From assembly GCA_020629285.1 (NCBI GenBank), contig JAHDDP010000021.1, positions 1 to 57,582 on the forward strand: a stretch of 57,582 nt of DNA. Reading direction: 5' to 3'. This DNA is from Maribacter sp. Its GTDB lineage: Bacteria > Bacteroidota > Bacteroidia > Flavobacteriales > Flavobacteriaceae. This document shows, piece by piece, positions 7,323 to 24,124 of this stretch. The notes beneath the pieces were generated by a model. It saw only the letters and a list, made by a program, of their open reading frames with translations. It was not told the origin of the DNA and did no database searches. Position numbers and translations under genes: made by a program. How positions within the stretch are numbered: the stretch's first letter is position 1; every line of letters starts with the position of its first letter.

Positions 7323-7364
7323 AGTGTCATCTACTAAAAGTGCATATTTAAGTTGTTAGTTGGA

Positions 7365-7412
7365 AAAGGGCATTTAAACTTTGACATTACGTTGAAGTTT
7401 GGTGCTCTTTTT
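7365..7412. terminator. Terminator between convergent kdgA and glpD
   Basis: A long stem (7365-7381 with 7395-7410, one bulge and some G-T pairs) is followed by T-rich sequence on the + strand. On the minus strand it runs into a TTTT stretch. It probably ends both the kdgA operon and the glpD operon. Confidence 0.65.
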
Positions 7413-7427
7413 GTTTGCTGTACACTA

Positions 7428-9095
7428 TTATATGAACTCTTTTGAATAATAAGTAGTTGCATCTTCAATAAGCATTTCTAATTTTTCTTTTTCATCTTTA
7501 GCATGCAAATCATTCCAGTTCAAGTACATTTTACAATCTTCTAGAATTAAACTAGCGTACTTTTTAACGCTAGGGATATCAAAATACAACCTACCTGTTC
7601 TACGAACAAAGAAGTCGGTAAGGGTATTGGTCATTTCATGATGAATGCAAAACCATAGTTCTGCCCTAATTATTCTCTCTAAAGCGTCTTCATTATCGAA
7701 AGATTTTGATTTAGTTAAAATAGTTTCGGCCTGTTTGCCATAAGTTGTGCATAAATACCAAGCATGATAGGTATCAACAACTCCCATTTCTTTTAACTTA
7801 TCCTCAAGTGCTTTTTGGTATTTAATAACATCTTTTGAATCACCTAAAGATGGTGACACCAATGCTATTTTAGCCGTGTCAGACTTCTTTAAATCAGCAG
7901 TGTGTTTTTTCTTCATGGTTTTCAGCACAGCTTCAATTACACGATCTGCCATTCTACGGTAACCGGTCAATTTACCTCCTGCTATAGATATTAATCCGCT
8001 GTCTGAAACAAATAATTCATCTTTTCTAGATAATTCGGACGGGTCTTTATCTTCCTCATGAATTAAAGGTCGTAAACCTGCCCAATTAGATTCTATATCA
8101 TTTATGGTAAGATCAACAGCCGGAAAAGTACTATTGATAGCATTTAAAATATAATTAGCATCATCTTCCGTAGCCACTACCCTATCTAAACTACCAGAAT
8201 AATTGGTATCTGTAGTACCAACATACGTAGCTCTACCCCTTGGTATCGCAAAAATCATTCTACCATCTGGCACATCAAAATATAAAGGTTGTTTTACTGG
8301 CAGTTTATCGTAAGGAAAAACAATATGCACCCCTTTGGTCAAGTGTAAATGCTTATTGTTCATAGATTCATCTTTGACCCTCAAAGTATCTACCCACGGA
8401 CCTGCGGCAGAAACATAATTTCTTGCCTTTATTTTTAATGCCGCTCCTGTATTGACGTCTTTACAATTCAGGTTTTTAATCTTATGGTTTTCATCATAAT
8501 CAAATGATTCCATCTCACAGTAATTAATAATCGTTGCACCATAAGATGCTGCTTTTTTTAATATCTCAATGGTTAAGCGTGCATCATCAGATCTATATTC
8601 GGCATAAAGACCACCACCTAAAACAACTTTTTCGTTAAGTAGCGGTTCTTTTTCCAATGTTTTTCCCTTGTCAAGCATTTTACGCCTATCATCGCCTTTT
8701 ACATCAGCTAAAAAATCATACACCTGTAAACCGATCGAGGTCATCATTTTACCGTAGGTACCCCCTTCAACTAAAGGTAAAAGCATTTTTTCGGGTATTA
8801 CTAAATGCGGTGCCAATTTATGAACTATAGCCCGCTCAGATCCTGATTCCCTTACCAAACCAATTTCAAATTGTTTTAGATAACGCAAACCTCCGTGTAT
8901 AAGTTTAGTAGATTTATTACTTGTACCCGATGCAAAATCGCTCTTCTCTACCAAGCATACCTTCAAGCCTCGTGAAGCAGCATCCAATGCAATACCTGCA
9001 CCGGTAACACCACCACCTATAATAGCCAGATCAAATTTTTCTTCCTGTAGTTTTTTGATTTGCTCGGCTCTGTTCAATACCGAAAATGCCAACAT
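7428..9095 (-). CDS. glpD: FAD-dependent glycerol-3-phosphate dehydrogenase
   Basis: A 555-residue GlpD-type enzyme that oxidises sn-glycerol 3-phosphate to dihydroxyacetone phosphate at the inner membrane, passing electrons to quinone. The FAD-binding DLAIIGGGVTGAGIALDAAS is near the N-terminus, followed by TKLIHGGLRYL; the C-terminal GlpD cap is present. An in-frame ATG lies five codons upstream (9110), but the sequence just before the inner ATG at 9095 contains AAGGAGG at Shine-Dalgarno distance, so 9095 is preferred. It is the last gene of the susC-to-glpD operon, directly after glpK, and completes glycerol conversion to DHAP. Confidence 0.93.
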   Translation of the reverse strand: MLAFSVLNRAEQIKKLQEEKFDLAIIGGGVTGAGIALDAASRGLKVCLVEKSDFASGTSNKSTKLIHGGLRYLKQFEIGLVRESGSERAIVHKLAPHLVIPEKMLLPLVEGGTYGKMMTSIGLQVYDFLADVKGDDRRKMLDKGKTLEKEPLLNEKVVLGGGLYAEYRSDDARLTIEILKKAASYGATIINYCEMESFDYDENHKIKNLNCKDVNTGAALKIKARNYVSAAGPWVDTLRVKDESMNNKHLHLTKGVHIVFPYDKLPVKQPLYFDVPDGRMIFAIPRGRATYVGTTDTNYSGSLDRVVATEDDANYILNAINSTFPAVDLTINDIESNWAGLRPLIHEEDKDPSELSRKDELFVSDSGLISIAGGKLTGYRRMADRVIEAVLKTMKKKHTADLKKSDTAKIALVSPSLGDSKDVIKYQKALEDKLKEMGVVDTYHAWYLCTTYGKQAETILTKSKSFDNEDALERIIRAELWFCIHHEMTNTLTDFFVRRTGRLYFDIPSVKKYASLILEDCKMYLNWNDLHAKDEKEKLEMLIEDATTYYSKEFI

Positions 9096-9114
9096 TTTAT
9101 CCTCCTTCATTGCC

Positions 9115-10593
9115 TTACTTTGTTTTTGTTCTTTTGACCGCTTTTTTCCAACCTTTATAATTTAATTTCCTTTCTTTTTTATCCATTTTAGGACTAAAAA
9201 TTGTGTCTATCTGCCTGATCTTGGCTATATCGCTCTTGGTCCAAACCCCTGCTTTAATACCAGCAAGTAAAGCTGCACCAAATGCCGTAACTTCTATCAT
9301 TTTTGGACGATCAACCTCAACATTCAAAATATCTGATTGAAACTGCATCAAATAATTATTTGCACTAGCACCACCATCAACCTTTAACGTAACGCTCTTA
9401 CTCTTACAATCTTTTTCCATTGCACCGATGACATCTTTGGTTTGATATGCCAAAGAGTTTACCGTGGCCTTGATCAATTCATCCCTACCGGTATCCAAGG
9501 TCATACCATAGATACTGCCCTTTGCATCAGAATCCCAATGCGGGGCACCTAAACCGGCAAATGCAGGTACTACATATACATTCTTTAATGGGCCTATACT
9601 TTTACAAATAGCTTCTGTTTCACTTGCGCTATCTATAACTTTCATTCTATCCCTTAACCATTGAATAGATGCGCCACCGGCAAAAATACTGCCCTCCAAA
9701 GCATAGTGTACAGGTTCATTTTCTAAACTACACGTTAAGGTAGTTAGTAAGCCTCTTTTTGAATTCACTAATTTCTCGCCGGTATTTAACAGTATAAAAC
9801 AACCAGTACCGAACGTACTTTTTGCAATACCTTCTTCAAAACCACCCTGACCGAACAATGCAGCTTGTTGATCTCCTGCAACGCCATAGATAGGAATAAG
9901 ATGATCTTTATACTGTATTGCTCCAAAATCTGAAGATGAATTTAGAACCTTTGGTAACAGTGATTTCGGAATATTTAATTCTTCAAGCAATTTATCGTCC
10001 CATTCTAACTTTTTAATATTATAAATTAGAGTTCTAGAGGCATTGGTATGATCGGTTACGTGCTTTTTACCTTCTGTAAACTTATAGATCAACCAACTAT
10101 CAATAGTACCGAACATTAATTTACCCGCTTCAGCTTTTTCTTGAGCACCTTCTACGTTATCAAGAATCCACTTTAATTTTGTACCTGAAAAATAGGAATC
10201 TATTACAAGGCCCGTATTTTGCCTTATATAATTGGTTAGACCTTTTTCTTCAAGATCATTACAGATGTTCGTCGTTCTTTTATCCAACCAAACAATAGCT
10301 TTATGAATTGGCTCTCCGGTTTCCCTATCCCAAACCACGGTTGTTTCCCTTTGGTTGGTAATACCTATAGAAGCAATCTCTTTTGGATCTATGCCAGATT
10401 TTTCTATGGCTTCATTAAACGTTTCTAGTTGGTCGTTGTAAATTTCTAAAGCATCATGCTCTACCCAACCAGGTTGTGGATAATATTGCTTTAATTCTTT
10501 TTGTGCAATTGATATAATACTACCTTGTTTATCGAAAACAATGGTTCTTGTACTTGTGGTACCTTGATCCAAGGCTATAACATACTTCTTCAT
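9115..10593 (-). CDS. glpK: Glycerol kinase
   Basis: A 492-residue FGGY-family kinase. ALDQGTTSTRTIVFD is the N-terminal ATP/phosphate motif, GVAGDQQAALFGQGG carries the catalytic Asp, and the glycerol-binding NQRETTVVW is intact. It phosphorylates glycerol to sn-glycerol 3-phosphate in the cytoplasm. No glycerol facilitator (glpF) is in the window. Instead, the kinase sits behind an SSS symporter and an alpha-galactosidase, so in this setting glycerol may be released inside the cell by hydrolysis of a galactosyl-glycerol. It has a 13-nt gap to the symporter gene and is followed directly by glpD. Confidence 0.95.
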   Translation of the reverse strand: MKKYVIALDQGTTSTRTIVFDKQGSIISIAQKELKQYYPQPGWVEHDALEIYNDQLETFNEAIEKSGIDPKEIASIGITNQRETTVVWDRETGEPIHKAIVWLDKRTTNICNDLEEKGLTNYIRQNTGLVIDSYFSGTKLKWILDNVEGAQEKAEAGKLMFGTIDSWLIYKFTEGKKHVTDHTNASRTLIYNIKKLEWDDKLLEELNIPKSLLPKVLNSSSDFGAIQYKDHLIPIYGVAGDQQAALFGQGGFEEGIAKSTFGTGCFILLNTGEKLVNSKRGLLTTLTCSLENEPVHYALEGSIFAGGASIQWLRDRMKVIDSASETEAICKSIGPLKNVYVVPAFAGLGAPHWDSDAKGSIYGMTLDTGRDELIKATVNSLAYQTKDVIGAMEKDCKSKSVTLKVDGGASANNYLMQFQSDILNVEVDRPKMIEVTAFGAALLAGIKAGVWTKSDIAKIRQIDTIFSPKMDKKERKLNYKGWKKAVKRTKTK

Positions 10594-10606
10594 ATCTTTT
10601 TATTCT

Positions 10607-12256
10607 TTAAAAAATCAAATACGTACTTAATACCAATACGGTAATAATTAGACCTACCAGCTTTGCATGTTTCCAAGGGGTTACGTCTATTTGATCTGTA
10701 ATTTTAGGGTTATAGATATTCTTATTAGGATACATTTTACCCATTAGCAATAAAAACCCAACATTGATTACAAATAGAATTCCCATTACGTGTAAAAAAT
10801 GAGGATACGCCTGTGCCTTGATAATACCAAGCTCTTTGGCATTCGTAATACCGTTCGCTGCGGCTTCTGCCATTGCAATATCAATGAAATGGGGACTTAG
10901 CACGAATTGACTAATCAAATACATAGCAACGCCGCCTGTCAATACTATTTTTGCGGCTATTGCAGGTACCTTCTTGGTCAACATACCAATGGTTACAACC
11001 GCTAGGATCGGTACACTTAAACTACCTAAAGATTCTTGTATATAAGCAAACAAGCCGTCTGGAGCGTTTGCAATGAACGGTGCCAATGTCATGGAAACGA
11101 AAGCTAAAAACAAACCAAAAAATTTACCTGCCCTTACCATTTGGGTATCCGACGCATTTTTATTGAAATATTGCCTATAAAGATCAATACCAAAAAGTGT
11201 TGAACTACTATTCAACAAGCTATTGAACGAACTTAAAATAGCACCGAACAATACCGCGGCAAAAAAACCTAAAAAGGCACCTGGCAATACTTTTTTAACC
11301 AAAGCCGGGTATGCTTGATCAGGATTATCTAGTTCTGCACCGAAAATATGCCAAGCGATAATACCCGGCAAAACCACAATTATGGGAATCAAAAATTTTA
11401 CGAAGCCAGCGAGCATCATACCCTTTTGACCTTCTGCCAAACTCTTTGCACCAAAGACTCTTTGCAGTATAGATTGGTTGGTACCCCAATAGTACATCTG
11501 CGCAATCATTAAACCGGTAAATAATGTACTAAATGGTAAGAATGAATCTATTTCGCCTTTTGCATTGAACTTATCCGGGTGTACATTCCATAGCTCACTA
11601 AACCCATCGGTAAGGCTGCCGTCTCCAATAAGCATCAGTCCGAAAACGGGTATCAGCAATCCGCCGATCAACAAACCTATAGCATTGACCAAATCTGATA
11701 TTGCAACAGCTTTTAATCCACCGAAAATAGCATAAACAGAACCTATTAAACCTATAGACCAAACACAGATCCATATTACGGTTGTTTGAGAGACACCTAA
11801 AACCTCTGGCAAATCGAACATTGTACTGAAGGCTATTGAACCTGAATAAAGAATGGTCGGCAACAATACGATACCAAACGCCACCAAAAAAAGCAGTGCC
11901 AGTATGGATTTGGTTTGCGAATCGAAACGCTCTTCAATAAATTCTGGTATTGTGGTTATACCTGACCGCATATACTTTGGCAAAAGATATATTGCAGTAA
12001 TAACCAAGGCAATGGCCGCCAAGGTTTCCCATGCCATTACTAAAACACCTTGAGCAAAAGATTGCCCGTTTAACCCGACTATTTGTTCTGCCGAAAGATT
12101 GGTCAATAATATAGAACCCCCAATAGTAATTGCGCCCAAACTTCTACCTGCAAGAAAATAACCATCTGCAGATTTCTCATCGGTTTTACGGGTATAGAAC
12201 CAAGCTATTACCGCAACTAAAATTGTGAATCCTAAAAAAGAAATAATCGAGAGCAT
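10607..12256 (-). CDS. Sodium:solute symporter (SSS/SLC5 family), sugar type
   Basis: A 549-residue, about 14-helix sodium symporter. The N-terminal DGYFLAGRSLGAITIGGSIL, followed by NLSAEQIVGLNGQSF, is typical of the SSS sugar subgroup (SglT/YidK-like). It probably imports a sugar or glycoside with Na+ across the inner membrane. Between the GH36/acetyltransferase genes and glpK/glpD, the likely cargo is the intact galactosyl-glycerol or the released galactose. It lacks any fused kinase or other domain. Substrate assignment is contextual. Confidence 0.87.
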   Translation of the reverse strand: MLSIISFLGFTILVAVIAWFYTRKTDEKSADGYFLAGRSLGAITIGGSILLTNLSAEQIVGLNGQSFAQGVLVMAWETLAAIALVITAIYLLPKYMRSGITTIPEFIEERFDSQTKSILALLFLVAFGIVLLPTILYSGSIAFSTMFDLPEVLGVSQTTVIWICVWSIGLIGSVYAIFGGLKAVAISDLVNAIGLLIGGLLIPVFGLMLIGDGSLTDGFSELWNVHPDKFNAKGEIDSFLPFSTLFTGLMIAQMYYWGTNQSILQRVFGAKSLAEGQKGMMLAGFVKFLIPIIVVLPGIIAWHIFGAELDNPDQAYPALVKKVLPGAFLGFFAAVLFGAILSSFNSLLNSSSTLFGIDLYRQYFNKNASDTQMVRAGKFFGLFLAFVSMTLAPFIANAPDGLFAYIQESLGSLSVPILAVVTIGMLTKKVPAIAAKIVLTGGVAMYLISQFVLSPHFIDIAMAEAAANGITNAKELGIIKAQAYPHFLHVMGILFVINVGFLLLMGKMYPNKNIYNPKITDQIDVTPWKHAKLVGLIITVLVLSTYLIF

Positions 12257-12301
12257 GCTTATTATGTTTTAAATGATAGTTAATACTTGATTATGTGATC
12301 A

Positions 12302-12865
12302 TTATTCTAAATTATCAATATATTTCAGCACTTTACAAGGGTTACCTACGGCAACCACATTTTCTGGTATATCTTTGACCACAACACTACCTGAGCCGAT
12401 TACAGAATTATTACCGATTTTTACCCCAGGGTTGACGATAACACCAGCACCTAGCCATACATTATCGCCTATGTGGATAGACTTTGCAAATTCAATACCC
12501 GAGTTACGGGCTTTGAAATCTAAAGGATGTGAAGCCGTCATTAGCTTAACACCTGGCGCCATCATAACGTTTTTTCCTATATAAACCGGTGCCGCATCTA
12601 AAATAATGCAACCAAAATTTGCGTAGGCATTTTCGCCCCAATGAATGTTATAACCATAATCGCATATAAACGGATTTTCAATATAAAATTCATTACCGGT
12701 ATCTGCGAAAAGTTCCCTGAACAAAAGTTTGCGTTTTGGCTCATCATCTTCTGATATCGCCGTAATTTTTCGCATTACCCGACGGGCATTTAATCTACCC
12801 TGCACCAACTCTGAATCGTTAGGATAGTAAAGTAGACCTTGGGTCATTTTTTCTCTTTCGCTCAT
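12302..12865 (-). CDS. Hexapeptide-repeat sugar O-acetyltransferase (LacA/Maa family)
   Basis: A 187-residue left-handed beta-helix acetyltransferase with the N-terminal Mac domain (MSEREKMTQGLLYYPND). The catalytic His113 is in TASHPLD, and the hexapeptide repeats run from about 70 to 180. The family acetylates galactosides (LacA) or maltose/glucose (Maa) with acetyl-CoA. Lying 9 nt after an alpha-galactosidase gene and next to a symporter, it recalls lacA of the lac operon and may detoxify non-metabolised galactosides. The acceptor cannot be read from the sequence. Confidence 0.88.
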   Translation of the reverse strand: MSEREKMTQGLLYYPNDSELVQGRLNARRVMRKITAISEDDEPKRKLLFRELFADTGNEFYIENPFICDYGYNIHWGENAYANFGCIILDAAPVYIGKNVMMAPGVKLMTASHPLDFKARNSGIEFAKSIHIGDNVWLGAGVIVNPGVKIGNNSVIGSGSVVVKDIPENVVAVGNPCKVLKYIDNLE

Positions 12866-12874
12866 GATATAGTT

Positions 12875-14644
12875 TTAAACTTTCTTCGCAATCAATATTC
12901 CACAAGGCGGTATGGCTATTTCCATAATACCTTTAGTAAAGGACCTAGTTTCTTCAGTTACGAGCTGCCCTTTGCAGTCATATACGTAACATTGATATTC
13001 TGCAAAATCTATGGCATTTTTTACTATAACAGAATCTGCTATTTGTCCGTTTAAAATATGGAATTCACTACCTACATTTTCTAAATCGATAACATATGCA
13101 TCATATACTCCATAAATTGTCTTGTCAGTAGTAGTGACTTTCTGCAACGGATAATTGGCTAATGGTCTATACGGCGTAAAATCTCCATTCATAAGCACAT
13201 CTGCATTTTTATTCCAGTAATCCGTATAAAAACCTATCATTTTCTTATGCTCAAAAGAAGCTTTGGATATAAACATGGATAATTGAGGTACGCCAAAAAG
13301 GGTATTGATCAATTGTAAGGCCGCAATTTCTACCGGTTCATCGTCATGCCAGGTAACCATATCTGAATGTACTGCGGTATTGCCACATAACATTCTAATA
13401 TCGGCAATACGTATTCTATTCATAGTAGCGTCGCCAGGGCAGTCGAATGCACGGAGCATATTACCGAATTTGCGCATAGCCGGACCAACGTATTTTTGCC
13501 TGAACTCTATGAAAATATCTGGCTTGATCGCTTGTAAACTTTCAATAACATCGGTCATTAACCTGTCTACGGCTTCGTTTATAGAGGCATAATCACGTCC
13601 ATTTTCCATACCTAAAGGCGTACTTTCGTACAACCTAAAATCATCAATAAAATCAAGTTTCAGTCCGTCTAAATTCCATTCTTTTATGGCATTGTTGTAT
13701 ATACCGATAAGATATTCCCTTACTTCTGGATATCTAGGATCGAAAACTGGTGCCCACCTATGGTCTTCGGTCAAGAATTTGCCCTTAAATTTTTTGAATG
13801 CTTCTGATTTGGGTCCGCAAAACGGCACAGAATACCAAATAGCGGCTTTAAGACCGGTTTCTTGGATCTGTTTTACATATGCAGCCATATCTGGTATACG
13901 TTCTGGTTTCCAATCACCCGTATAGTCGTACCCTCGGTTATTATCAAAAGTCTGCCAACCATCATCGATAATGACCGCTTTATACCCTAAATCGCTAGCC
14001 AACCTACATTCTTCCAATAATAATTCCAAGTCCAAATTTTGGTGAAACTGATACCAAGTAGAATACAATGGCGTTTTTGCAATTGCCGGTACCGTGGTCG
14101 GCTTTAAATCATCAAAAGTCTCCCACCATGTAGACACATCTTTTAGTGCTGTGGAAAAACGAATGTTTCTTAAATCTACACGAATTTGTGCATCAAAATT
14201 TTCTATTGGTTGCTCTTCTTCAGAGAAGAAGGTGATATGACAATAGAAATAATTATCTTCTTCTCTTATACGAGCGTTCATTTGCAATTTATTAATTGCA
14301 TTTGAACACGCGAAGGTGATGATATTTTCATCATTATGACCGAATAGGCTTATTACAGGAGCATCAATAGAGATCCTCGATTCCATATGGTCCAATTCCC
14401 AATCGGCCTGTATTCTTTTTGAGAAATCTGTTGTAGGTTTCCAAACTCCTTTTACATTTACCGCAGGCACTTTCCATCTTAATGTAATAGGTTTTGGAAA
14501 TTGCTTTTCATTACACGAGACGTTAAACCGATAAGTTTGCAAACCATTATCGTCACTTATTTTTTGGACGGAAGAGGATATATTTGCATCATCTTCTATA
14601 ATCTCCATAGCTTCTATAGTAGCAGTAATACTATCAACATTCAT
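12875..14644 (-). CDS. GH36-type alpha-galactosidase, cytoplasmic
   Basis: A 589-residue clan GH-D glycosidase without a signal peptide. An N-terminal beta-sandwich (about 1-185) precedes the TIM barrel with VIIDDGWQTF. The nucleophile Asp331 is in WNLDGLKLDFIDDF and the probable acid/base Asp401 in RAFDCPGD. It should release alpha-galactose from a small substrate inside the cell; alpha-N-acetylgalactosaminidase activity is an alternative in the same family. The start is the ATG at 14644; a GTG lies three codons earlier. Neighbours are the UnbV lipoprotein upstream and acetyltransferase, symporter, glpK and glpD downstream. This argues for an alpha-galactosyl-glycerol substrate such as floridoside (inference). 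The enzyme is shorter than the usual 700-residue GH36 members. Confidence 0.85.
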   Translation of the reverse strand: MNVDSITATIEAMEIIEDDANISSSVQKISDDNGLQTYRFNVSCNEKQFPKPITLRWKVPAVNVKGVWKPTTDFSKRIQADWELDHMESRISIDAPVISLFGHNDENIITFACSNAINKLQMNARIREEDNYFYCHITFFSEEEQPIENFDAQIRVDLRNIRFSTALKDVSTWWETFDDLKPTTVPAIAKTPLYSTWYQFHQNLDLELLLEECRLASDLGYKAVIIDDGWQTFDNNRGYDYTGDWKPERIPDMAAYVKQIQETGLKAAIWYSVPFCGPKSEAFKKFKGKFLTEDHRWAPVFDPRYPEVREYLIGIYNNAIKEWNLDGLKLDFIDDFRLYESTPLGMENGRDYASINEAVDRLMTDVIESLQAIKPDIFIEFRQKYVGPAMRKFGNMLRAFDCPGDATMNRIRIADIRMLCGNTAVHSDMVTWHDDEPVEIAALQLINTLFGVPQLSMFISKASFEHKKMIGFYTDYWNKNADVLMNGDFTPYRPLANYPLQKVTTTDKTIYGVYDAYVIDLENVGSEFHILNGQIADSVIVKNAIDFAEYQCYVYDCKGQLVTEETRSFTKGIMEIAIPPCGILIAKKV

Positions 14645-14658
14645 AAAAAACACTTTAA

Positions 14659-17600
14659 TTAATTCTTAAAAAATACCTTTGCTTCGTTATTATATTGGGT
14701 TGCCATATAAAAAGGCTTGCCATTTTTATCTTTTGCTTTTATTAAGTGATTTGATTGCCCCGGCACGTAAAAACCAGAATCCTTACTATCATAAACCAAA
14801 AATTCATCAGCTTCTCTCTCTAACCATAAGCCCCTAAGCGCATCTTGATTACCGTAATGTGTTTCTGCAGTTAAATCATTACCTACCAAAAGCACGTCTA
14901 CCTTACCATCGTCATCAAGGTCATCTATTAAAATATCTTGAATAGGTGCTACTTGACATTTACTTGGCAGCGGTACCAATCTAAATTTTCCATTTCCTAA
15001 ATTTTCTGCATAACTACTTTCAAAAATTATAGCCTGTAACGTTTCTGAAGATAAGTCTTTAATTTTCAACAACTCTTCAAAATTTACATTTGCGAAATCT
15101 TGGTAAGAGGTGTGGTCGTTTTTTAAAACAGTAAGCTGTTTCATAACATCATCCCTAGAATGGACCGGCAATAATTGACTGCCGTTTTCCGTATTGTAGT
15201 GCATTGCCAAAATAGGATCAAAACTGCCGTTTTTATCATAATCCCTAGTATATACATAAACGGGCTTGGTCTGTGAAGGCTTCATAAAACCATTTGTACC
15301 TTGGTTTCCTAAAATGAAATCTAAATCACCATCTTTATCAACATCTGCCGCTACGACCTTATTCCACCAGCCAGATGTGTTTATCTCCTCATCTTGAAAA
15401 CTTAACCATGTTATAGGCATACGATTTAAATTGCCATTATCATTCTTAAAAACAACGATTTCCATAAACTCACCAACCACTATCAAATCTTTCCAAGAAT
15501 CATTATCGACATCTTCCCAAATTGCACTAGTTACCATGCCTAGGTTAGCAAATAATGCTTGAAATTTTTTATGAAAACCTTTATTTTCATTTTCTAAAAA
15601 AATACTTTCAGGTACTAACGGATATTCTTTTGGATTTAATCTTGATCCAAGAAAAATATCTAAATCCCCATCTTTATCATAATCTTCTGCTGCAATGGCA
15701 CTTGTACTTTTGCGACCTACAGGTAACAATCCATTACTTTTAACAAATGACCCCTCCCCATCGTTAAGATAAACTCTGTCTTGATATTTTGAAGACCCCT
15801 CTTCAAATCTATTGCCACCGCTTGCAACATATAAATCTTGATCACCGTCTTGATCTATATCTAAAAAAACCGCTGCCGAATCATCATACTCGGTATCTAA
15901 TAATTGAACGGGCATATACACCCCTTCTGCATTCTGGGACCAAATACTGCCCGGTCTTCCTTTACTACCGCCAATAAACAATTCATCTCCTGCAACACCA
16001 TCAATATTTGCGGCTACTACGCAAGTACTTTTTGCTGTATACTGCTTTACCAATAAATGCTGATATGTATACTCGTTTAAGGGATTGTCATTTTGTGTAT
16101 AATTTATTAAAGTAGAATCCAATTGAAATAATCGTCTTCTCTCTGTTTCAGTCTTTACCAATGGTTCTGCCTCTTTTTGTCTTAAAGTCAAAACTTGATT
16201 AACCGCAACTTTATACTTCATCGTAGTTTTACCATCTGGCCATTGCACCTTTAAAGAGTCAACAATAGTGTCTTTTAACCCAAAATGTACTATTGGCTCC
16301 ATTGAGGACAAATACCCCCTAATTACAGATTGATATTGATCTTGCAAACCACCACCATGGTAAAGGGAAATTCTGGCCCCGATTGCCTTTGCGTTCTTTA
16401 AGCTACCGTTAAGGCGAACTCGCAGATAATTGTTCTGCTTGTTTTTTGATGTAGTATTCTCTAAAACAAAAGCTTTTGAATTGATGTTATTGACCACCAT
16501 ATCCAAATCACCATCGTTATCTAGATCAGCGTAAGCCGCGCCATTTGAAAACGATTCTTTTTCTTGTATCCATTTTGTTGAGACATCATCAAAGTTTTCT
16601 TCTAAAACTTGCTCATATATAAAATTAGGCAAATGAATACCCTGTAATTTCGAGACCGATTCTTTTAAACGCTTGCTTTTTGCCTCTGGAGTTCCGAATA
16701 TTCCATTTTCATTGGAATAATTAATGAAGTCTAAATCTGTAATATCTTTTACATAACCATTAGTAATATAAATGTCTTTATCGCCGTCATTATCAAAATC
16801 TACCATTAATGGAGCCCAGCTCCAATCTGTACTTGAGATGCCTTTTTGAAAACCTACTTCACTTGATTTAATTGGCTCGTCATTTATAAAACCATTACCC
16901 ATTTGTAATGTGTTGTGCATGTATTGCTGTGTATAACCATTACTTTGAGATAATAGAAACTTATCGTAATTCATGCTACCCAGCATTAACTTTTGTCTTT
17001 TGTATTGATCAGGCAACATATCTACCACCAAAATATCTGGTATAGCGTCATTATTGACATCTGTAATATCAACACCCATGGCATTATAAGTTTCATGGGA
17101 CAGGTACTCTTTACTAGATTCTACAAAAACAGGATTTTTATTAGCAGCCGATGCCTTGTTGATATACAGCAAATCATCTGTTATAAAATCATTGGACACA
17201 TAAATATCCGGTAAATTATCTCCATTAAAATCATGTATACCTACCCCTAGACCAAAGCCTCTACCGGTAATTTGTAAACTATCTGAAACATTTTTATACA
17301 CCGGATGATCAATACCTGGCACTGTTTCGTTCTTTAAAAGATAATCTGATAAATGACCTGGCAAATACCTTTTTGGCATTGGTGTATTTTTGTCGTGCGT
17401 AGTATTGCCGTTATGAACAACATACACATCTAGATCACCATCTAGGTCATAATCAAAAAATACGGCTTGCTGTGCATAATTGGCATCATCAAGACCATAT
17501 GCTTTCGCTTCTTCATTGAAAAAGGGAACTCCTTCGTCATTAAGTCCCTGATTTACAAATAAAAGGTTAGGGCAATTATTGTTACAATTTGCACCACCTA

Positions 17601-17991
17601 CATTTAAGTAAATATCATCCCAACCATCTGAATTAATGTCTACGATAGCAACACCTGTAACCCAAGAATCGGTAAAAAACTTAGCCTTCTCCGATATATC
17701 GGTAAAGGCTAAATTTCCATTATTTAAATATATTCTTGATGATACCTGGTTCCCCGTAAAAACAATATCCTGAAGATTGTCGTTATTAAAATCACCTATG
17801 CCAACACCACCACCATTATAACAATACTGAAAATCTATAATATTGATTTCGTCGTTTTCGGTAATCGTATTTGAGAAATTTATATGTGTTGTTCGCTCAG
17901 AAAGGCTATTGAACACAAAACTTTCTTTATTAGAATTACAGCTAATTACCAATAGCAGAAGAAAACTTAATAAGAAAGTATTTTTTATCAT
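14659..17991 (-). CDS. FG-GAP/VCBS repeat lipoprotein with ASPIC/UnbV domain
   Basis: A 1110-residue exported protein. The N-terminal MIKNTFLLSFLLLLVISC ends in a lipobox Cys, so it is a lipoprotein. Many Asp-rich calcium loops of the FG-GAP/VCBS type follow (for example DINSDGWDDIY, DYDLDGDLDVY, DFNGDNLPDIY, DFDNDGDKDIY, DLDNDGDLDMV), forming two beta-propeller-like blocks. Between them, near residues 540-610, is an ASPIC/UnbV domain. Such proteins are frequent third members of susCD loci in marine Bacteroidota and are presumed surface binding or docking proteins; no catalytic function is known. An in-frame upstream start would run through the hairpin at 18014-18041, so 17991 is preferred. 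It follows susD by 78 nt and precedes the GH36 gene by 14 nt. Confidence 0.87.
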   Translation of the reverse strand: MIKNTFLLSFLLLLVISCNSNKESFVFNSLSERTTHINFSNTITENDEINIIDFQYCYNGGGVGIGDFNNDNLQDIVFTGNQVSSRIYLNNGNLAFTDISEKAKFFTDSWVTGVAIVDINSDGWDDIYLNVGGANCNNNCPNLLFVNQGLNDEGVPFFNEEAKAYGLDDANYAQQAVFFDYDLDGDLDVYVVHNGNTTHDKNTPMPKRYLPGHLSDYLLKNETVPGIDHPVYKNVSDSLQITGRGFGLGVGIHDFNGDNLPDIYVSNDFITDDLLYINKASAANKNPVFVESSKEYLSHETYNAMGVDITDVNNDAIPDILVVDMLPDQYKRQKLMLGSMNYDKFLLSQSNGYTQQYMHNTLQMGNGFINDEPIKSSEVGFQKGISSTDWSWAPLMVDFDNDGDKDIYITNGYVKDITDLDFINYSNENGIFGTPEAKSKRLKESVSKLQGIHLPNFIYEQVLEENFDDVSTKWIQEKESFSNGAAYADLDNDGDLDMVVNNINSKAFVLENTTSKNKQNNYLRVRLNGSLKNAKAIGARISLYHGGGLQDQYQSVIRGYLSSMEPIVHFGLKDTIVDSLKVQWPDGKTTMKYKVAVNQVLTLRQKEAEPLVKTETERRRLFQLDSTLINYTQNDNPLNEYTYQHLLVKQYTAKSTCVVAANIDGVAGDELFIGGSKGRPGSIWSQNAEGVYMPVQLLDTEYDDSAAVFLDIDQDGDQDLYVASGGNRFEEGSSKYQDRVYLNDGEGSFVKSNGLLPVGRKSTSAIAAEDYDKDGDLDIFLGSRLNPKEYPLVPESIFLENENKGFHKKFQALFANLGMVTSAIWEDVDNDSWKDLIVVGEFMEIVVFKNDNGNLNRMPITWLSFQDEEINTSGWWNKVVAADVDKDGDLDFILGNQGTNGFMKPSQTKPVYVYTRDYDKNGSFDPILAMHYNTENGSQLLPVHSRDDVMKQLTVLKNDHTSYQDFANVNFEELLKIKDLSSETLQAIIFESSYAENLGNGKFRLVPLPSKCQVAPIQDILIDDLDDDGKVDVLLVGNDLTAETHYGNQDALRGLWLEREADEFLVYDSKDSGFYVPGQSNHLIKAKDKNGKPFYMATQYNNEAKVFFKN

Positions 17992-18013
17992 AAAAAAGTA
18001 ATAAAGAAGTTTA

Positions 18014-18041
18014 AAGCCAAGCATCTCAACATACTTGGCTT
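18014..18041 (-). other. Intercistronic hairpin between susD and the UnbV lipoprotein gene
   Basis: A perfect 8-bp stem, AAGCCAAG with CTTGGCTT, has a 12-nt loop and sits 28 nt after the susD stop. On the minus strand it is followed by only a weak T-rich stretch. It could attenuate read-through, or protect the susCD 3' end so that susCD outnumber the downstream mRNA. Confidence 0.5.
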
Positions 18042-18069
18042 ATTAAACTCAACAACAACTAACAAAACT

Positions 18070-19626
18070 TTAATATCCTGGGTTTTGTACTAAATTAGGA
18101 TTAGCATCTAACTCTGAACTAGGAATCCATATCAATTCATGCTTACCTGTTTCAAACACACCACCACTTAAAGACTTAGGGTGTGCACCATGTAATGAAC
18201 TTGCACCTAAATAATCATCTGCAAGGCCCCATCGTACTAGATCAAAGAAACGATGACCTTCACCCGCCAACTCCATAGCACGTTCATCGATAATTGCTTG
18301 ACGCATATCTGCCTGACTTAAATTTAAATCGGAAATAGTAGATATACCAGCTCTTAATCTAACTTCATCTACGAAAGGTGCTGCAAGAGCAGGTTGATTG
18401 TTTTCATTTAATGCTTCTGCAAGCATCAATAAAACATCTGCATATCTAATAATTCTCCAATTGTTACCCACATTTGTACCTAAGAAATCTACTTGATCTC
18501 TGGTGCCTAAATCTAAACCTGCATATTTTTTTGAAAATATAGGTTCTACACCAGCATCATTAGCTACCGTGATATCATCTGCAAAATCTGTCAAATAATC
18601 TGTACCACCATAACCCAAAGCACCAGGATAATCATAGACCAATGTTTCATTTCTACGTACTAAATCTCCGTTTGATTCAAATAAATCTTTCAACCAAGGG
18701 TTTACCACGTGACTTTGATCAGGAGATTTTGTAGGCGGTGCATAATCAATATGATAGTTGCCCATAGTACCTGTACCAGGGATATCCGTACCCCAAACAA
18801 ATGTAGTTTGACCCAAAAATTGTAGTTCGAATATAGACTCTTGATTATTCTCGTTCGTGGTAGTAAAATTATCGGCATATTGAGCAGAAGGAAGTAAACT
18901 GTATTGACCAATTAGACTCTGAAAAGCTTCTATAGCCAATGGATACTCTTTCATGTACAAATAGCTCTTTCCTTTTAGTGCCGTTGCAGCACCAGAAGTT
19001 GGTCTACCTAAATTATCACCTCCCCAAGTTTCCGGAAGCATTTGTTCTGCCATCTCCAAATCGGCTATAATTTGAGCCCAGATATCTTCTGGGGCCGCTT
19101 GGTCTACCAATAAATTATCCAAATCTGGCAATTCCGTTATTAACGGCACACTACCATATAAATTCAACAAATACCAGTAATCAAATGCTCTTAAAAAATA
19201 TGCTTGACCTACAAGATTATTTCTAATCTCCGTATCTGTTATACCTTCTTCATTTACGTTAGTGATAATATTATTACAACGCGCAATAGATTTATACAAC
19301 TGCTGAAAAGGCTCTGTTGCCCATCTATCACCCGGGTTACCTTGTAAGGTTGACATTGCCGTATTACTACCAAACGGAAATATGTTAAATTCGTCTGAAC
19401 GTAATAAGGCACCTGTATGAACTATTCTGCCCCAGAAAAAAGTATCTGTTATAGGATGAAATGCACCATTTACCGCAGATTCTACCTGTGCTATTGAACT
19501 ACCAAAATTGGCAGTAGAGGTAGCATTGTTGTTTTCTTGATCTAAAAGTTCATCTGAACACGAACCTAATAAAACAATACTCGATAGCGCTAAGGCTAAG
19601 TTTTTTGATTTAAAAATATATTTCAT
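18070..19626 (-). CDS. SusD/RagB-family substrate-binding lipoprotein
   Basis: A 518-residue outer-membrane lipoprotein. The signal peptide ends in the lipobox LLGSC, with Cys at about residue 23. The SusD-like N-terminal region and helical TPR-like core follow, and RAFDYWYLLNLYGSVPLI is a family hallmark. The C-terminal RxxELAGEGHRFFDLVRWG-type motif is present as ERAMELAGEGHRFFDLVRWG. It forms the lid of the SusC transporter and binds the ligand. It starts 17 nt after susC. The ligand is unknown; the operon suggests a galactoside. Confidence 0.93.
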   Translation of the reverse strand: MKYIFKSKNLALALSSIVLLGSCSDELLDQENNNATSTANFGSSIAQVESAVNGAFHPITDTFFWGRIVHTGALLRSDEFNIFPFGSNTAMSTLQGNPGDRWATEPFQQLYKSIARCNNIITNVNEEGITDTEIRNNLVGQAYFLRAFDYWYLLNLYGSVPLITELPDLDNLLVDQAAPEDIWAQIIADLEMAEQMLPETWGGDNLGRPTSGAATALKGKSYLYMKEYPLAIEAFQSLIGQYSLLPSAQYADNFTTTNENNQESIFELQFLGQTTFVWGTDIPGTGTMGNYHIDYAPPTKSPDQSHVVNPWLKDLFESNGDLVRRNETLVYDYPGALGYGGTDYLTDFADDITVANDAGVEPIFSKKYAGLDLGTRDQVDFLGTNVGNNWRIIRYADVLLMLAEALNENNQPALAAPFVDEVRLRAGISTISDLNLSQADMRQAIIDERAMELAGEGHRFFDLVRWGLADDYLGASSLHGAHPKSLSGGVFETGKHELIWIPSSELDANPNLVQNPGY

Positions 19627-19643
19627 TGTTTTAAATTTTATGA

Positions 19644-22600
19644 TTAGAAAGTAGCTTGTACACCAAACATGATTGTTCTTGCATTTGGATACGCTCTTGC
19701 ATCCAATCCTCTACCTAATAATGGATTTACTCTATCTCTTAAACCTGGCACACCAGAATTTCTATTTGCTCTACCTCCATTTGTTGAAGAAACATCTGGA
19801 TCATAACCGCTATAACCGGTAATTACGAATACGTTTTGCACATTCAATGACAAACGAACATCTTTTACCCAGTCTAAACCAGCAAAGCCATCTCTAAAAT
19901 TATATCCGATATCTAAATTTTTCAATCTAAAATACGAACCGTCTTCTACGAAGAATGAAGAAGGTGCCTTGTTACCTGCAGCATCAGAAATCGAAGCTCT
20001 TGGTATATTGGTATCTGTATTAGAAGGTGTCCATGAATTCAATACATCGGTAAGCTTACCACCATCTTGCCATAAAATGCTATAATACCTACTTAAATTA
20101 TAAATTTCATTGCCTTGTACACCATTGAAACTAAGTGCGAAATCGAAATTTTTATAATCGGCATTTACATTTAAACCATACGTAAAATCTGGAGTAGGAT
20201 CACCAATATTGGTAATATCGTCTGCGGTAATAGCACCATCGCCATTTACATCTACCCTTACGAAATCTCCGGTCGCGGGATCAACTTTATCCTCAACTAC
20301 GTAACCGTAGAAAGCACCAATAGGCTCACCTGCCGTTGTTCTGTTTACTACACGCAAATCTTCATCAATTGCAGGACCTAATATTGGATTCGGCACATCG
20401 CCTGCTTCACTTTTAAGGTTGAACGAGAAGTTTGTACCAACGGTATAAGTGAAATCCCCTTCGTTTTTACGGTAGGTCAAATCCCATTCCAATCCGTTAT
20501 TAACAAGCGTACCGGCATTTCTAGTTACAGGTAAACTAACACCACTTGTAGATGGCACGTTTATAGCTACCAATACATCTTCTATGTTCTTTGAATAATA
20601 ATCCATTGTAAAATTCATCTTATTATTCATGAAAGCTATATCAAAACCGATATCAAATGTTTTCGATGTCTCCCACACCAAGTTTGGATCTGCCAAAGTT
20701 GTTTGTGCCAAACCTGTTGCCAAACCGCCACCAAAGGAAGTATTGGATTGATTTGCCTGGAAAGTTGCTTGCGTTGGATAAAAAGTATCAGGATATGAAC
20801 CTAATACACCATAAGAAGCCCTTAATTTAAAATAGTTAATGGTTTCTGATTTCCAGAAGTCTTCATCACTAATATTCCACCCTGCAGAGAACGAAGGAAA
20901 ATAACCTACTCTATTATCTGGCGCAAAACGCGAAGAAGCATCTCTTCTTAATGTTGCCGAAAATAAATACTTACTATCATAACCATAGTTTACACGACCA
21001 AAATAAGACTGTAACGCTGCGGTATTGTTGTTACCCAATAGCACCAATTGCTCAGTAGATGGTAATGCACCAACATTACGTATAACATTAGATGGTGTAC
21101 CTTGACCAAACACACCGTTACCTTTTTGTGTTTCTTTAAAATAAGTAAAACCTGCAACCGCACCTAGCTTATGCACACCAAATTCTTTGTCGTAAGCCAA
21201 TGTCGGCTCTACAAGAACATTTACATCTTCTTGTCTATAATCAGTCAGATCATTTTCTGCGTTTACGTTCAGTACCGCATCAATAGTACTCATAAAATAT
21301 GTTGGCGTAAATTGAAAGCTGTTTCTGTTGGTATAATCAACACCGAAATTCAAAGAAGCTTTTAAACCATCTACAATCTCATAATCTAACTTTGCATTAC
21401 CGAAAATGGTTCTTGTCGTCTCTAAATTATTCTCCAAACTTGCCAAACCATACTGGTTTATACCACCAGGACCATGAATCGGTAATGACGGTGCTTCAAA
21501 ACCACCATCGTTAGCCGCATTTCTAAATGCCAATGTCGGTACCGATGCACCATCCCAACCATACCAGTTGTTTTCTTGTAATTTACCTTCGGCAATACCT
21601 AATGATTGAGCTAAGGTAAATCTACCGAACTCAGACCTACTATTGAACCTCATGTTAATTCTCTTGAAGCCAGAACCTACCAAAATACCATCTTGATTAA
21701 AATAGTTACCAGAAGCATAGTAAGATGTGTTTTCTCCTCCACCTGAAATTGAAAATCCAAGATCCTCAACAATACCAGAGCTTAACGATTCGCTCTGCCA
21801 ATCTGTATTTACACCGTTATAGGCAACAGTAGTAGACTCACCGTCATTGGCAAATCTTTGATTTAAATAATCTGTGTATTGCTGACCATTGATGTAATCT
21901 AATTTTTTACTTGGAGAATCAAATCCTATTCTGGTATTCAATTTTACCTCTACCGCTCTATTTTTACGACCGTGGTTCGTTTTTATCAAAACTACACCAT
22001 TGGCAGCCCTAGAACCATATATTGAAGCTGCCGCAGCATCTTTTAATATAGATATATCTTCAATATCTTGCGGATTTACATAATCCATATTGTCCACGAA
22101 CAAACCATCTACGATATATAAAGGATCTGCATTACTTAAAGAGTTTACCCCTCTAATAAACACATTGGCAGAACCCCCTGGTTGACCACCAAAACTCTCT
22201 ACCTGAATACCAGATAACTTACCTTGAAGCGCAGTTGTAGGGTTACTTGCTACAACATTTACAATTGCCCCCTTCTTAATAGTCGCTACGGAACCTGTAA
22301 GCTCTCTTTTATTTGAAGTACCATAACCAATCAATACCACTTCTGATAATGCTTGAGCATCTGACTCCATAGTAACATTTATCGTAGACTGCCCTTGAAC
22401 GGCAATTTCTTGCTTCGCATAGCCTATATAGCTATAAACCAATACACTTTCATCTACTACATCAGAAATTGTATAGTTTCCGTCAAAATCGGTTGTTACC
22501 CCATTTGTAGTTCCTTTTACTACAATGTTAACACCAGGTAATGGTCCGTCTACATCCGAGACCGTACCTGAGACCTGCGTAGTTTGAGCAAATGCAAAAC

Positions 22601-22655
22601 TACCCAGTAGCGCAAATGCCAAACCAAAAATTTGTTTGAGTGTTTTTCCCATCAT
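19644..22655 (-). CDS. SusC/RagA-family TonB-dependent outer-membrane transporter
   Basis: A 1003-residue TonB-dependent porin. It has a signal peptide (about 1-23, ending AFAQ), then a carboxypeptidase-like regulatory beta-sandwich (about 27-100), a TonB-box region near LSEVVLIGYGTSNKRELTGS, a plug domain (about 110-225) and a 22-strand barrel ending in an aromatic Phe. It imports the SusD-bound ligand into the periplasm with TonB energy. It is the first gene of the operon and has a clear Bacteroidetes promoter upstream. Its adjacent regulator is on the same strand upstream. Confidence 0.94.
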   Translation of the reverse strand: MMGKTLKQIFGLAFALLGSFAFAQTTQVSGTVSDVDGPLPGVNIVVKGTTNGVTTDFDGNYTISDVVDESVLVYSYIGYAKQEIAVQGQSTINVTMESDAQALSEVVLIGYGTSNKRELTGSVATIKKGAIVNVVASNPTTALQGKLSGIQVESFGGQPGGSANVFIRGVNSLSNADPLYIVDGLFVDNMDYVNPQDIEDISILKDAAAASIYGSRAANGVVLIKTNHGRKNRAVEVKLNTRIGFDSPSKKLDYINGQQYTDYLNQRFANDGESTTVAYNGVNTDWQSESLSSGIVEDLGFSISGGGENTSYYASGNYFNQDGILVGSGFKRINMRFNSRSEFGRFTLAQSLGIAEGKLQENNWYGWDGASVPTLAFRNAANDGGFEAPSLPIHGPGGINQYGLASLENNLETTRTIFGNAKLDYEIVDGLKASLNFGVDYTNRNSFQFTPTYFMSTIDAVLNVNAENDLTDYRQEDVNVLVEPTLAYDKEFGVHKLGAVAGFTYFKETQKGNGVFGQGTPSNVIRNVGALPSTEQLVLLGNNNTAALQSYFGRVNYGYDSKYLFSATLRRDASSRFAPDNRVGYFPSFSAGWNISDEDFWKSETINYFKLRASYGVLGSYPDTFYPTQATFQANQSNTSFGGGLATGLAQTTLADPNLVWETSKTFDIGFDIAFMNNKMNFTMDYYSKNIEDVLVAINVPSTSGVSLPVTRNAGTLVNNGLEWDLTYRKNEGDFTYTVGTNFSFNLKSEAGDVPNPILGPAIDEDLRVVNRTTAGEPIGAFYGYVVEDKVDPATGDFVRVDVNGDGAITADDITNIGDPTPDFTYGLNVNADYKNFDFALSFNGVQGNEIYNLSRYYSILWQDGGKLTDVLNSWTPSNTDTNIPRASISDAAGNKAPSSFFVEDGSYFRLKNLDIGYNFRDGFAGLDWVKDVRLSLNVQNVFVITGYSGYDPDVSSTNGGRANRNSGVPGLRDRVNPLLGRGLDARAYPNARTIMFGVQATF

Positions 22656-22720
22656 AAAATCAATGTTAATTAATAATCTTTTGTTTGTTAGTTAATTTAA
22701 CGCAATGACATAAAATTGTA

Positions 22721-22774
22721 CTATGCCAGTCTATGCTATTATGCAAATATAGATATTTTTGCATTATATCAAAA
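22721..22774 (-). promoter_or_regulatory. susC promoter with phased repeats at the start site
   Basis: On the minus strand, TTTTG (22770-22774) is followed after 18 bases by TATATTTG (22744-22751), a good Bacteroidetes promoter. Just downstream, the + strand reads CTATGC at 22721 and 22731 and TTATGC at 22739, roughly helically phased repeats covering the predicted start. They are candidate sites for the adjacent GntR/LacI-type regulator. Confidence 0.55.
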
Positions 22775-22792
22775 TATTAAGTTAAAATTTAA

Positions 22793-22835
22793 TATATGAC
22801 AATATATATGCTTCAATAATACACATATGATAATA
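22793..22835. promoter_or_regulatory. Direct repeat between the regulator gene and the susC promoter
   Basis: TATATGACAATA (22793-22804) and CATATGATAATA (22824-22835) agree at 10 of 12 positions, with a 31-bp period (about three helical turns). They lie upstream of the susC -33 element and could bind an activator. In AT-rich DNA, chance similarity is possible. Confidence 0.3.
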
Positions 22836-22861
22836 CGGGATAAAAACGAATTGTTTAAAGA

Positions 22862-23875
22862 CTAAAGAGAATTCCTTTTAATTAGATTGGAAGGCATGAT
22901 AATCTTTGTTTCTTCTTGATTCTTAATATGGGCGGCCGCCTTCTTTCCCATTTCTTTGAAGTCTGTTGAAATGGTGGTAATACCTCCGAAAACTATTTCT
23001 TTTACTACATGATCATTATGCGATAAGATTCCGATTTCCTTACCTACAATATATTCACTATTTCTAACATCTTTTAGAACATCCCAAATGTAAGTGTCAC
23101 TCACAAAAAAGTACAAGTTCCCTTTCTTAATAGATTGCGATTTATACTTGCTTACTACAGATGATTCTATTTCATAATCTTTACAAAACCTATTAAAGGC
23201 ATTTAATATACCAATGGGATAATCTGCATCTTCCTTAAAAAACAGTATGAACTTTTTGTACTTAGTAATCTCTGGCAGTAATTCTATTAATTTGGAATAT
23301 GTTGACTCTTCAAATTCTTGTGAGATATAAGAGTACGAATTATCAAGTTCAATATACCTATCGATTATCAATAAATTGGAAGGTGGTATAGATGCTAATA
23401 CCTGACGTAAACCAGGGTCTTGTATAGGGGCAATAGCATACATGCCATATTTACCCTGAATATTTTGAAATATGCTATTAAATATTTCTAAGTTATTATG
23501 ATGAAAGAATACATCTATTTGATATTTTTTACCCAATCCTTTTCGAAACGAATCATAAAAGTCTTGTTGAAATCGCTGAAAAGAGAACATTATCAATGCC
23601 ACCTTTAATACCACCTTGGTCTCATTGCTGACTACAAAGTACCCTTTCAATTTCTTTGACTCTACTAAACCACGATCCTTAAGCTCTTCATAAGCCTTAA
23701 CAATAGTTTGTCTTGCAAAACCCAATTGCGAAACCATTTGGTTTATGGATGGCAACTTGTCGCCCCGCTTTACTATACCTTCATCGATAGCCTGTATAAT
23801 ACCGTTAACCAGTTGTTCGTGCTTAGAAAAAGTATTGATATTTCTTAAACTAATAATTTTATCGAATAAGGTCAT
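22862..23875 (-). CDS. GntR-type regulator with LacI-like effector domain
   Basis: A 337-residue hybrid regulator. The N-terminal GntR winged helix (about 10-80; KLPSINQMVSQLGFARQTIV) is joined to a periplasmic-binding-protein-like domain (about 88-335). The latter ends with GKEIGILSHNDHVVKEI and GGITTISTDFKEMGKKAA, typical of LacI/GalR effector domains. AraR of Bacillus has the same arrangement, and such regulators respond to free sugars. It lies 206 nt upstream of susC on the same strand, so it probably controls the susC-to-glpD operon, with a galactoside, galactose or galactosyl-glycerol as inducer (inference). Confidence 0.87.
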   Translation of the reverse strand: MTLFDKIISLRNINTFSKHEQLVNGIIQAIDEGIVKRGDKLPSINQMVSQLGFARQTIVKAYEELKDRGLVESKKLKGYFVVSNETKVVLKVALIMFSFQRFQQDFYDSFRKGLGKKYQIDVFFHHNNLEIFNSIFQNIQGKYGMYAIAPIQDPGLRQVLASIPPSNLLIIDRYIELDNSYSYISQEFEESTYSKLIELLPEITKYKKFILFFKEDADYPIGILNAFNRFCKDYEIESSVVSKYKSQSIKKGNLYFFVSDTYIWDVLKDVRNSEYIVGKEIGILSHNDHVVKEIVFGGITTISTDFKEMGKKAAAHIKNQEETKIIMPSNLIKRNSL

Positions 23876-24124
23876 TTTGGCTATCGGTATTTTAAAAAGA
23901 AGATAATATATAAAAAAGTTCTTTATGAGCTTAAAGTAAGTTTTAATTTTAATAATTATACCTTATTAATTAATCGACAACCGTATAATGCCATTAACCT
24001 CAACACTTGAAACCATTACGACTAGAAAACAATAGCAAAATAGACCAACCTTTCTAATTAAAATTGTAACGACTTTTGTCTACATCAAAAAATTAAATAC
24101 ATAAAATGTTTATACATTAGAGGA

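Follow-up and report, generated by a model that had tools for sequence, protein, structure and literature searches.

An operon joining susCD, a glycosidase and glycerol genes

We analyzed a 57,582-nucleotide (nt) stretch of Maribacter sp. DNA (contig JAHDDP010000021.1; "the window" is this whole stretch), in which an original prediction made from the sequence alone had placed an operon for the use of floridoside. Floridoside, an osmolyte of red algae, is 2-O-alpha-D-galactosylglycerol. The nine-gene minus-strand series that it described was borne out by an open reading frame (ORF) check and family scans, with all nine ORFs open at 7428-23875 in one series. In operon order, these are:

22862..23875, minus strand: GntR-type regulator with a LacI-like (Peripla_BP_3) effector region (PF00392, 44 bits; PF13377, 22 bits, under the 26.5 cut-off)
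19644..22655, minus strand: SusC-type TonB-dependent transporter (TIGR04056, 798 bits)
18070..19626, minus strand: SusD-type surface lipoprotein (PF07980, 135 bits; lipobox-like N-terminus LLGSC by eye)
14659..18024, minus strand: FG-GAP/UnbV_ASPIC lipoprotein (PF13517 and PF07593; N-terminus with VISC by eye)
12875..14653, minus strand: GH36-like glycosidase, 592 amino acids (aa) (weak Melibiase match under cut-off; AlphaFold2 model and Foldseek; invariant residues)
12302..12865, minus strand: Maa/LacA-type hexapeptide O-acetyltransferase (NF007499, 218 bits, under the 314 cut-off)
10607..12256, minus strand: sodium:solute symporter (SSS), vSGLT type (NF007790, 725 bits, cut-off 401)
9115..10593, minus strand: glycerol kinase GlpK, second copy of the genome (TIGR01311, 702 bits, above the equivalog cut-off of 590)
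7428..9110, minus strand: FAD-dependent glycerol-3-phosphate dehydrogenase GlpD (PF01266 (DAO), 185 bits; PF16901 (DAO_C), 62 bits)

The gaps had been described as mostly under 80 nt. This holds after susC, where they measure 17, 45, 5, 9, 45, 13 and 4 nt along the operon, whereas gntR and susC are separated by 206 nt. The DAO and DAO_C domains of GlpD both score above cut-off, and its equivalog model NF008899 gives 322.5 bits (cut-off 360). The other glpK of the genome lies on contig C16 with a second glpD adjoining, a pair 58% identical to the operon pair, and the galK of the genome is found on contig C47. The UnbV lipoprotein is probably a surface binding protein.

The glycosidase resembles GH36 alpha-galactosidases in fold and motifs

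The original prediction named the glycosidase a GH36 alpha-galactosidase, a label that proved too strong for its sequence. Against a Melibiase cut-off of 27 bits the protein reaches 23.8, or 25.2 in the genome search, and the GH36N and GH36C domains (PF16875 and PF16874) were not matched at E<=0.001 in a Pfam scan. The same Pfam library does find PF16875 and PF16874 in a 744-aa protein that adjoins a related gene in another operon (L084, see below). Among NCBIfam models it matches one for beta-L-arabinopyranosidase best, at 26.6 bits. By sequence, the closest solved relatives are alpha-galactosidases, with a best E of 5e-7, or 1.8e-12 with a 24-sequence profile.

The resemblance of the modeled structure to GH36 alpha-galactosidases did stand. 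The AlphaFold2 model (pLDDT 85.8, pTM 0.88) has SpAga (6phw) as its top Foldseek match (E 1.8e-25, TMq 0.63, 14% identity), and the top matches are mostly GH36 alpha-galactosidases, with one galactosaminidase among them and GH31 enzymes lower. In an alignment of 24 glycosidase sequences, D230, D231, W233, K332, D334 and D404 were invariant, and the DDGW and KxD motifs align with GH36 chains. D334 aligns with the GH36 KxD region, which holds the nucleophile, and by comparison with a GH36 motif we read D404 as the putative acid/base. Thus, by Foldseek and alignment, the enzyme has both the fold and the catalytic motifs of the clan GH-D alpha-galactosidases. It shares the overall fold, DDGW and KxD with SpAga, AgaA (4fnr) and the Thermotoga maritima enzyme (5m0x), but differs from them in its low identity (14% in the matches to all three), its score under the Pfam cut-off and its lack of GH36N and GH36C. 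If our reading of the operon is right, it would add a GH36-like subfamily in which no close relative has a solved structure. Model and sequence suggest that the glycosidase is probably an alpha-galactosidase acting on galactosyl-glycerol.

Signal peptides and lipoboxes were judged from N-termini by eye. No signal peptide was seen in the 17 close glycosidases, the operon's own included, and the enzyme is apparently cytoplasmic. The seven more distant copies (39-46% identity) carry a signal or lipobox.

A vSGLT-like symporter

The best solved relative of the symporter is vSGLT (219.5 bits), the Vibrio Na+/galactose symporter; its PDB entry reads sodium/glucose cotransporter. Of nine vSGLT residues at its galactose site, seven are kept in the operon protein (N53, Q58, E77, Y256, W257, K287 and Q407) and two are changed (S91 to A80, N260 to Q253). 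Position 294 is A in the first aligned chain and K in the second. The symporter is probably the inner-membrane importer. It would differ from its solved relative in that the predicted substrate is an intact heteroside, and the residues replaced are those at S91 and N260.

Relatives of the operon in the Flavobacteriaceae

To place the operon among its relatives we used two comparison sets, which overlap (11 of 16 close loci are probably the same records), and their counts are not summed. The first covered 299 genomes from this family; the glycosidase was matched at E<=1e-10 in 24 of them, our own included. Besides our own copy there are 16 close copies at 57-68% identity, seven distant copies in seven genomes at 39-46%, and one partial match; one genome (G018) holds both a close and a distant copy. 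Four of the 16 close neighborhoods have the order gntR-susC-susD-GH36-SSS-glpK-glpD, and two have a single GlpK-GlpD frame (1055 or 1061 aa). Galactose genes occur in these neighborhoods as well: a galactokinase gene lies downstream in four and divergent in one, GalT is found in three and GalE in one. No glpK or glpD was present in the fetched neighborhoods of the seven distant copies. The gene after one distant copy encodes a GH97 protein, and relatives of that gene lie in two others of these seven loci.

The second set, to which all counts out of 80 refer, consisted of the best 80 of 166 relatives. By record title, all but one of these loci belong to the Flavobacteriaceae or to genera placed there, including Zobellia, Maribacter, Aquimarina, Algibacter, Flavivirga, Tenacibaculum, Polaribacter, Dokdonia, Kordia and others; the remaining locus is a Saprospiraceae metagenome-assembled genome (MAG). 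A run was defined as genes on the same strand with gaps of <=600 nt, and neighbors were labeled by their best BLAST match at E<=1e-10 to a few references. With remote paralogues taken in for SSS, UnbV and susC/D, runs contained SSS in 75 loci, susD in 58, gntR in 56, susC in 55, UnbV in 52 and maa in 17. A few of the 75 SSS genes are remote (31-33% identity).

Genes for both glycerol and galactose use recur around the glycosidase. Both glpK and glpD are in the run in 36 of 80 loci, as 16 separate pairs and 20 fused frames. Runs contain galE in 15 loci, galK in six and galT in three; at least one of the three lies within the locus in 23, and 12 have both gal genes and glpKD. For GalK, GalT and GalE alike, the one representative scanned scored above its NCBIfam cut-off (TIGR00131, TIGR00209 and TIGR01179). 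Two Allomuricauda loci differ by an exchange of the two gene sets: L106 reads gntR-GH36-SSS-galK-galT and L115 reads gntR-GH36-SSS-glpK-glpD. Additionally, GlpK-GlpD and GalE occur together in several operons of Aquimarina and in the two from Dokdonia. The gene order that the original prediction had proposed to look for in other marine Bacteroidota was thus present in other Flavobacteriaceae.

One Maribacter locus (L086:16688-18613, plus strand) encodes, directly after glpD, a 641-aa mannosylglycerate-hydrolase-like protein (PF22422) with a lipobox-like N-terminus. Mannosylglycerate (digeneaside) is another red-algal heteroside. We treat a digeneaside link as a lead only: it concerns one locus, which adjoins genes that by eye resemble xylose-use genes, and the gntR there is only 91 aa long.

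Probable recruitment of the glycerol genes, and their fusion

In 17 genomes, our own included, seven of 18 GlpK copies (E<=1e-80) lie within ~3 kb of a close glycosidase copy, so the arrangement of glycosidase and glpK is not chance. The sole GlpK match at this threshold is in the operon in six of the 17 genomes and elsewhere in 10; the Maribacter genome studied here has both. We built a maximum-likelihood tree of 37 operon copies and eight of the 11 copies from elsewhere. The operon copies occupy three different positions in it. Thirty-two form the main clade, which holds all 20 fused and 12 separate copies, including that of this operon; four from Maribacter and Cellulophaga make up a second clade; and a single Allomuricauda copy is nested within the copies from other locations. 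This suggests that glpK was recruited into the operon repeatedly, although a gene replaced in situ would leave the same pattern.

A MIP channel gene lies within ~50 nt of four of the 11 glpK copies found elsewhere and of none of the seven operon copies. Because MIP genes are present in all 17 genomes, the lack of a glycerol channel in the operon is no argument in itself. Uptake of free glycerol or galactose as the sole role of the operon was considered and set aside, given a glycosidase that looks cytoplasmic and an operon without a MIP channel.

In 20 of the 80 loci GlpK and GlpD form one open frame of 1054 to 1091 aa; fused frames are also seen at L039:2782-5949 (minus strand) and L040:4312-7497 (minus strand). 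The carriers are Aquimarina, Dokdonia, Kordia, Tenacibaculum, Polaribacter and other Flavobacteriaceae. Among 295 genomes sampled across the class, the fused protein was matched at E<=1e-150 in 81, of which one (G567, same family) is full length without a stop and a few more have long open frames at the match; the fusion is rare in this sample. We know of no description of a GlpK-GlpD fusion, and our literature searches were not aimed at it. The fusion is an enzyme architecture worth testing.

A CATAG repeat element upstream of susC

The intergenic region between gntR and susC holds two elements:

22744..22751, minus strand: -7 box of the Bacteroidota type, TATATTTG, read from the gntR-susC intergenic sequence against the known consensus
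22721..22737, minus strand: putative operator AGCATAGACTGGCATAG, two CATAG direct repeats 10 nt apart

In the related loci the gntR-susC region has a conserved element, AGCATAGnnnnkCATAG, after a TAnnTTTG-like box; similar TTTG boxes stand before the site elsewhere among the loci, and L054 has three CATAG repeats. At <=1 mismatch the site was found in 55 of 80 loci, in contrast to two of 80 for a reversed control pattern, and for 59 of 67 site matches, susC, GH36 or SSS begins no more than 600 nt downstream. Where susC and GH36 are divergent, both sides can carry the site (L059, L066, L067, L069, L072 and L083). A looser variant, scored without a control, was present in 46 of 56 regions between gntR and the next gene. 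Across the 17 genomes there were 16 exact matches and one control match; 12 of the 16 lie at the operon or at a gntR-linked susC, and the other four look incidental. A promoter and terminator scan of 7100-24200 gave no excess over shuffled sequence (54 promoter-like hits against a mean of 69.6, and 10 terminator-like hits against 9.6). That the site directly follows the -7 box is suggestive of a repressor, and the GntR/LacI-type protein likely represses the operon from the CATAG repeats.

This genome, which is 83% complete, has two exact sites. One is at the operon, and the other is at a second susCD operon on contig C39 (L151:179-13256) with the order susC-susD-UnbV-PAP2-UnbV and a divergent gntR paralogue. 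Four genes of the C39 set (susD, UnbV, PAP2 and the second UnbV) are matched at 62-75% identity by genes that lie immediately before the GH36-like gene in L052 and L060, and in these two loci only, a likeness that links the two uptake systems. Remote versions of the C39 susC (40-41%) and susD (47-48%) occur in L061, L077 and L080; the Zobellia loci differ.

A candidate pathway for alpha-galactosyl-glycerol

On balance, we favor the reading that these genes form a catabolic operon under repressor control, with a small alpha-galactosyl-glycerol as substrate; floridoside or isofloridoside is the most likely one. Because galactose and glycerol genes recur around the glycosidase, together with a sugar-type symporter and susCD, an alpha-galactosyl-glycerol is the simplest single substrate. 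SusC, SusD and the UnbV lipoprotein would bring the heteroside over the outer membrane, and the vSGLT-like symporter would move it intact through the inner membrane with sodium. The GH36-like enzyme would then hydrolyze it in the cytoplasm. The galactose half would enter the Leloir pathway, for which relatives carry gal genes in or beside the operon, and the glycerol half would be converted to dihydroxyacetone phosphate by GlpK and GlpD. Repression at the CATAG repeats would be lifted when galactosyl-glycerol or its product binds the regulator. Further points in favor are the six genomes whose sole GlpK match lies in the operon, the full GH36 alpha-galactosidase added in one Aquimarina operon (L084) and the shared CATAG site. 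The original proposal of a substrate that contains galactose and glycerol and is split inside the cell is independently supported by the gal genes of related operons, the recurring glpKD and its fusion, the absence of a signal peptide and the likeness to vSGLT. Its further claim, that floridoside and isofloridoside fit exactly, we would soften: floridoside or isofloridoside is the likeliest natural substrate, and the linkage and the red-algal source are predicted from sequence.

Several observations weigh against this assignment. The linkage is read from a remote GH36 relationship, with a Melibiase score under the cut-off and, across the 50 best matches by structure, an identity of 10-15%. Neither glpKD nor a gal gene was present in the fetched stretch of 33 of 80 loci, some of which are truncated by contig ends. 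Two versions of the operon contain a further hydrolase, a GH2 beta-galactosidase (L130:11731-14790, plus strand) and a GH13 alpha-amylase-family enzyme (L054:16333-17997, plus strand). The glycosidase is absent from both of the same-genus genomes examined, and the operon is therefore accessory in the genus. The exact CATAG site was not found in the fetched stretches around galK (C47) or the other glpK-glpD pair (C16), and we accordingly dropped the idea that the gal genes of this genome belong to the CATAG regulon. Some carrier names point to sponges or corals; a coral paper is said to deal with floridoside in algal symbionts, which would fit the coral-named carriers. Finally, the L052 carrier, isolate 4-528 (matched by strain number), was described as Maribacter algarum and comes from Gelidium, a red alga, but it is reported to recruit more reads from Ulva (PMC12313589), an argument against a niche confined to red algae.

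Other substrates could account for parts of this pattern. The main rival is digalactosyl-glycerol or galactosyl-glycerol derived from the galactolipids digalactosyldiacylglycerol and monogalactosyldiacylglycerol of any alga: a lipase would remove the fatty acids, the GH36-like enzyme would take off the alpha-galactose of digalactosyldiacylglycerol, and a beta-galactosidase would free the glycerol. Such a route likewise yields galactose and glycerol, would explain carriers beyond red algae and could make use of the GH2 enzyme in the L130 run. We nevertheless consider it unlikely: among the annotated part of the unmatched neighbor genes there is no lipase, L130 has the only beta-galactosidase, and one glycosidase is enough for floridoside where galactolipids would need the two additional enzymes. 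Marginally less likely is a general alpha-galactoside operon (for melibiose, the raffinose type or galactan side chains) in which glpKD is present through co-regulated glycerol metabolism. It gains from the galK, galT and galE genes in some operons, from the full canonical GH36 alpha-galactosidase of 744 aa that adjoins the GH36-like gene in the operon of Aquimarina sp. RZ0 (L084:10725-12959, plus strand), and from the 44 of 80 loci whose run is missing a complete glpKD pair. However, it does not readily account for glpKD having probably entered the operon more than once and being fused in a quarter of the loci (20/80), or for glpK adjoining a MIP gene only in copies outside the operon, and no further hydrolase recurred among the annotated neighbors of close copies.

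The least probable of the alternatives, and one we regard as quite remote, is that the sugar is not galactose at all, the substrate being another alpha-glycosyl-glycerol such as cyanobacterial glucosylglycerol, or a beta-L-arabinopyranoside. The beta-L-arabinopyranosidase model is the best NCBIfam match of the enzyme, and L054 has a GH13 enzyme, glucosylglycerol phosphorylase being a member of GH13_18 (PMC11787520). This view has to be set against the galK, galT or galE genes that accompany the glycosidase in 23 of 80 loci and against the DDGW motif of GH36 alpha-galactosidases, which is kept. An alpha-galactosyl-glycerol thus remains our preferred substrate.

More tentatively, and with rather less confidence than in the substrate class, we propose that a galactosyl-glycerol pathway is widespread and was repeatedly assembled in seaweed- and coral-associated Flavobacteriaceae. 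In this broader scheme a CATAG regulon would join two outer-membrane uptake systems, and strong selection for use of the glycerol half would have led to the recruitment of glpKD about three times and to the fusion of GlpK and GlpD into a bifunctional enzyme that hands on glycerol-3-phosphate directly. If an alpha-galactosyl-glycerol is indeed the substrate, the operon would name the genes and give a marker for tracing the turnover of a red-algal osmolyte in metagenomes, and susCD machinery would have been turned to a small heteroside.

Comparison with known systems

Like the SusC/SusD polysaccharide utilization loci (PULs) of Bacteroidota, the operon combines a susC-susD pair with a lipoprotein of the surface, a glycosidase of its own and a regulator encoded on the spot, and its susC and susD are adjacent as in a SusCD locus. 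Unlike PULs, it has no secreted depolymerase or other polysaccharide-degrading enzyme outside the cytoplasm, its sole glycosidase being without a signal peptide by eye, and it has a glycerol branch (glpK and glpD). These differences fit a small heteroside rather than a polysaccharide.

A dedicated system for a small algal carbohydrate is known from another seaweed flavobacterium. The mannitol system of Zobellia galactanivorans (cited in PMC9296495) serves a single polyol, which PMC9296495 describes as a storage carbohydrate of brown algae, whereas the operon here would split a glycoside and use both halves. Marinobacter is likewise a heterotroph that catabolizes a glycosyl-glycerol osmolyte. 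Its pathway (PMC10873239, PMC11787520) uses a GH13_18 phosphorylase on a glucoside, in contrast to the GH36-like hydrolase and predicted galactoside here. An Anoxybacillus GH36 alpha-galactosidase forms isofloridoside by reverse hydrolysis (PMC8509150), so the chemistry is known for GH36.

We found no description of such an operon in the titles and abstract openings of the papers listed for floridoside or galactosyl-glycerol and bacteria, a search that covered mostly open-access papers and excluded preprints. The only match for floridoside with polysaccharide utilization was work on Palmaria xylan. By text search, "GH36" is absent from the main text of two Zobellia transcriptome papers and "floridoside" from that of the first. 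In PMC12313589, the GH36 loci of two other strains are read as galactomannan loci. A seaweed epiphyte study (PMC10233909) is the probable source of many of the carrier isolates and MAGs.

Elsewhere in the window, 27383-34172 encodes a transglutaminase-like protein, a circularly permuted ATP-grasp/Alpha-E protein and a DUF2126 amidoligase in a row, with no visible link to the operon. Next to the operon, 175-7287 holds genes for a GntR/FCD regulator, an MFS transporter, an SDR protein, a LacI regulator, a PfkB kinase, a PFK-family protein and a KDPG aldolase, a set that resembles uronate or alginate monomer metabolism.

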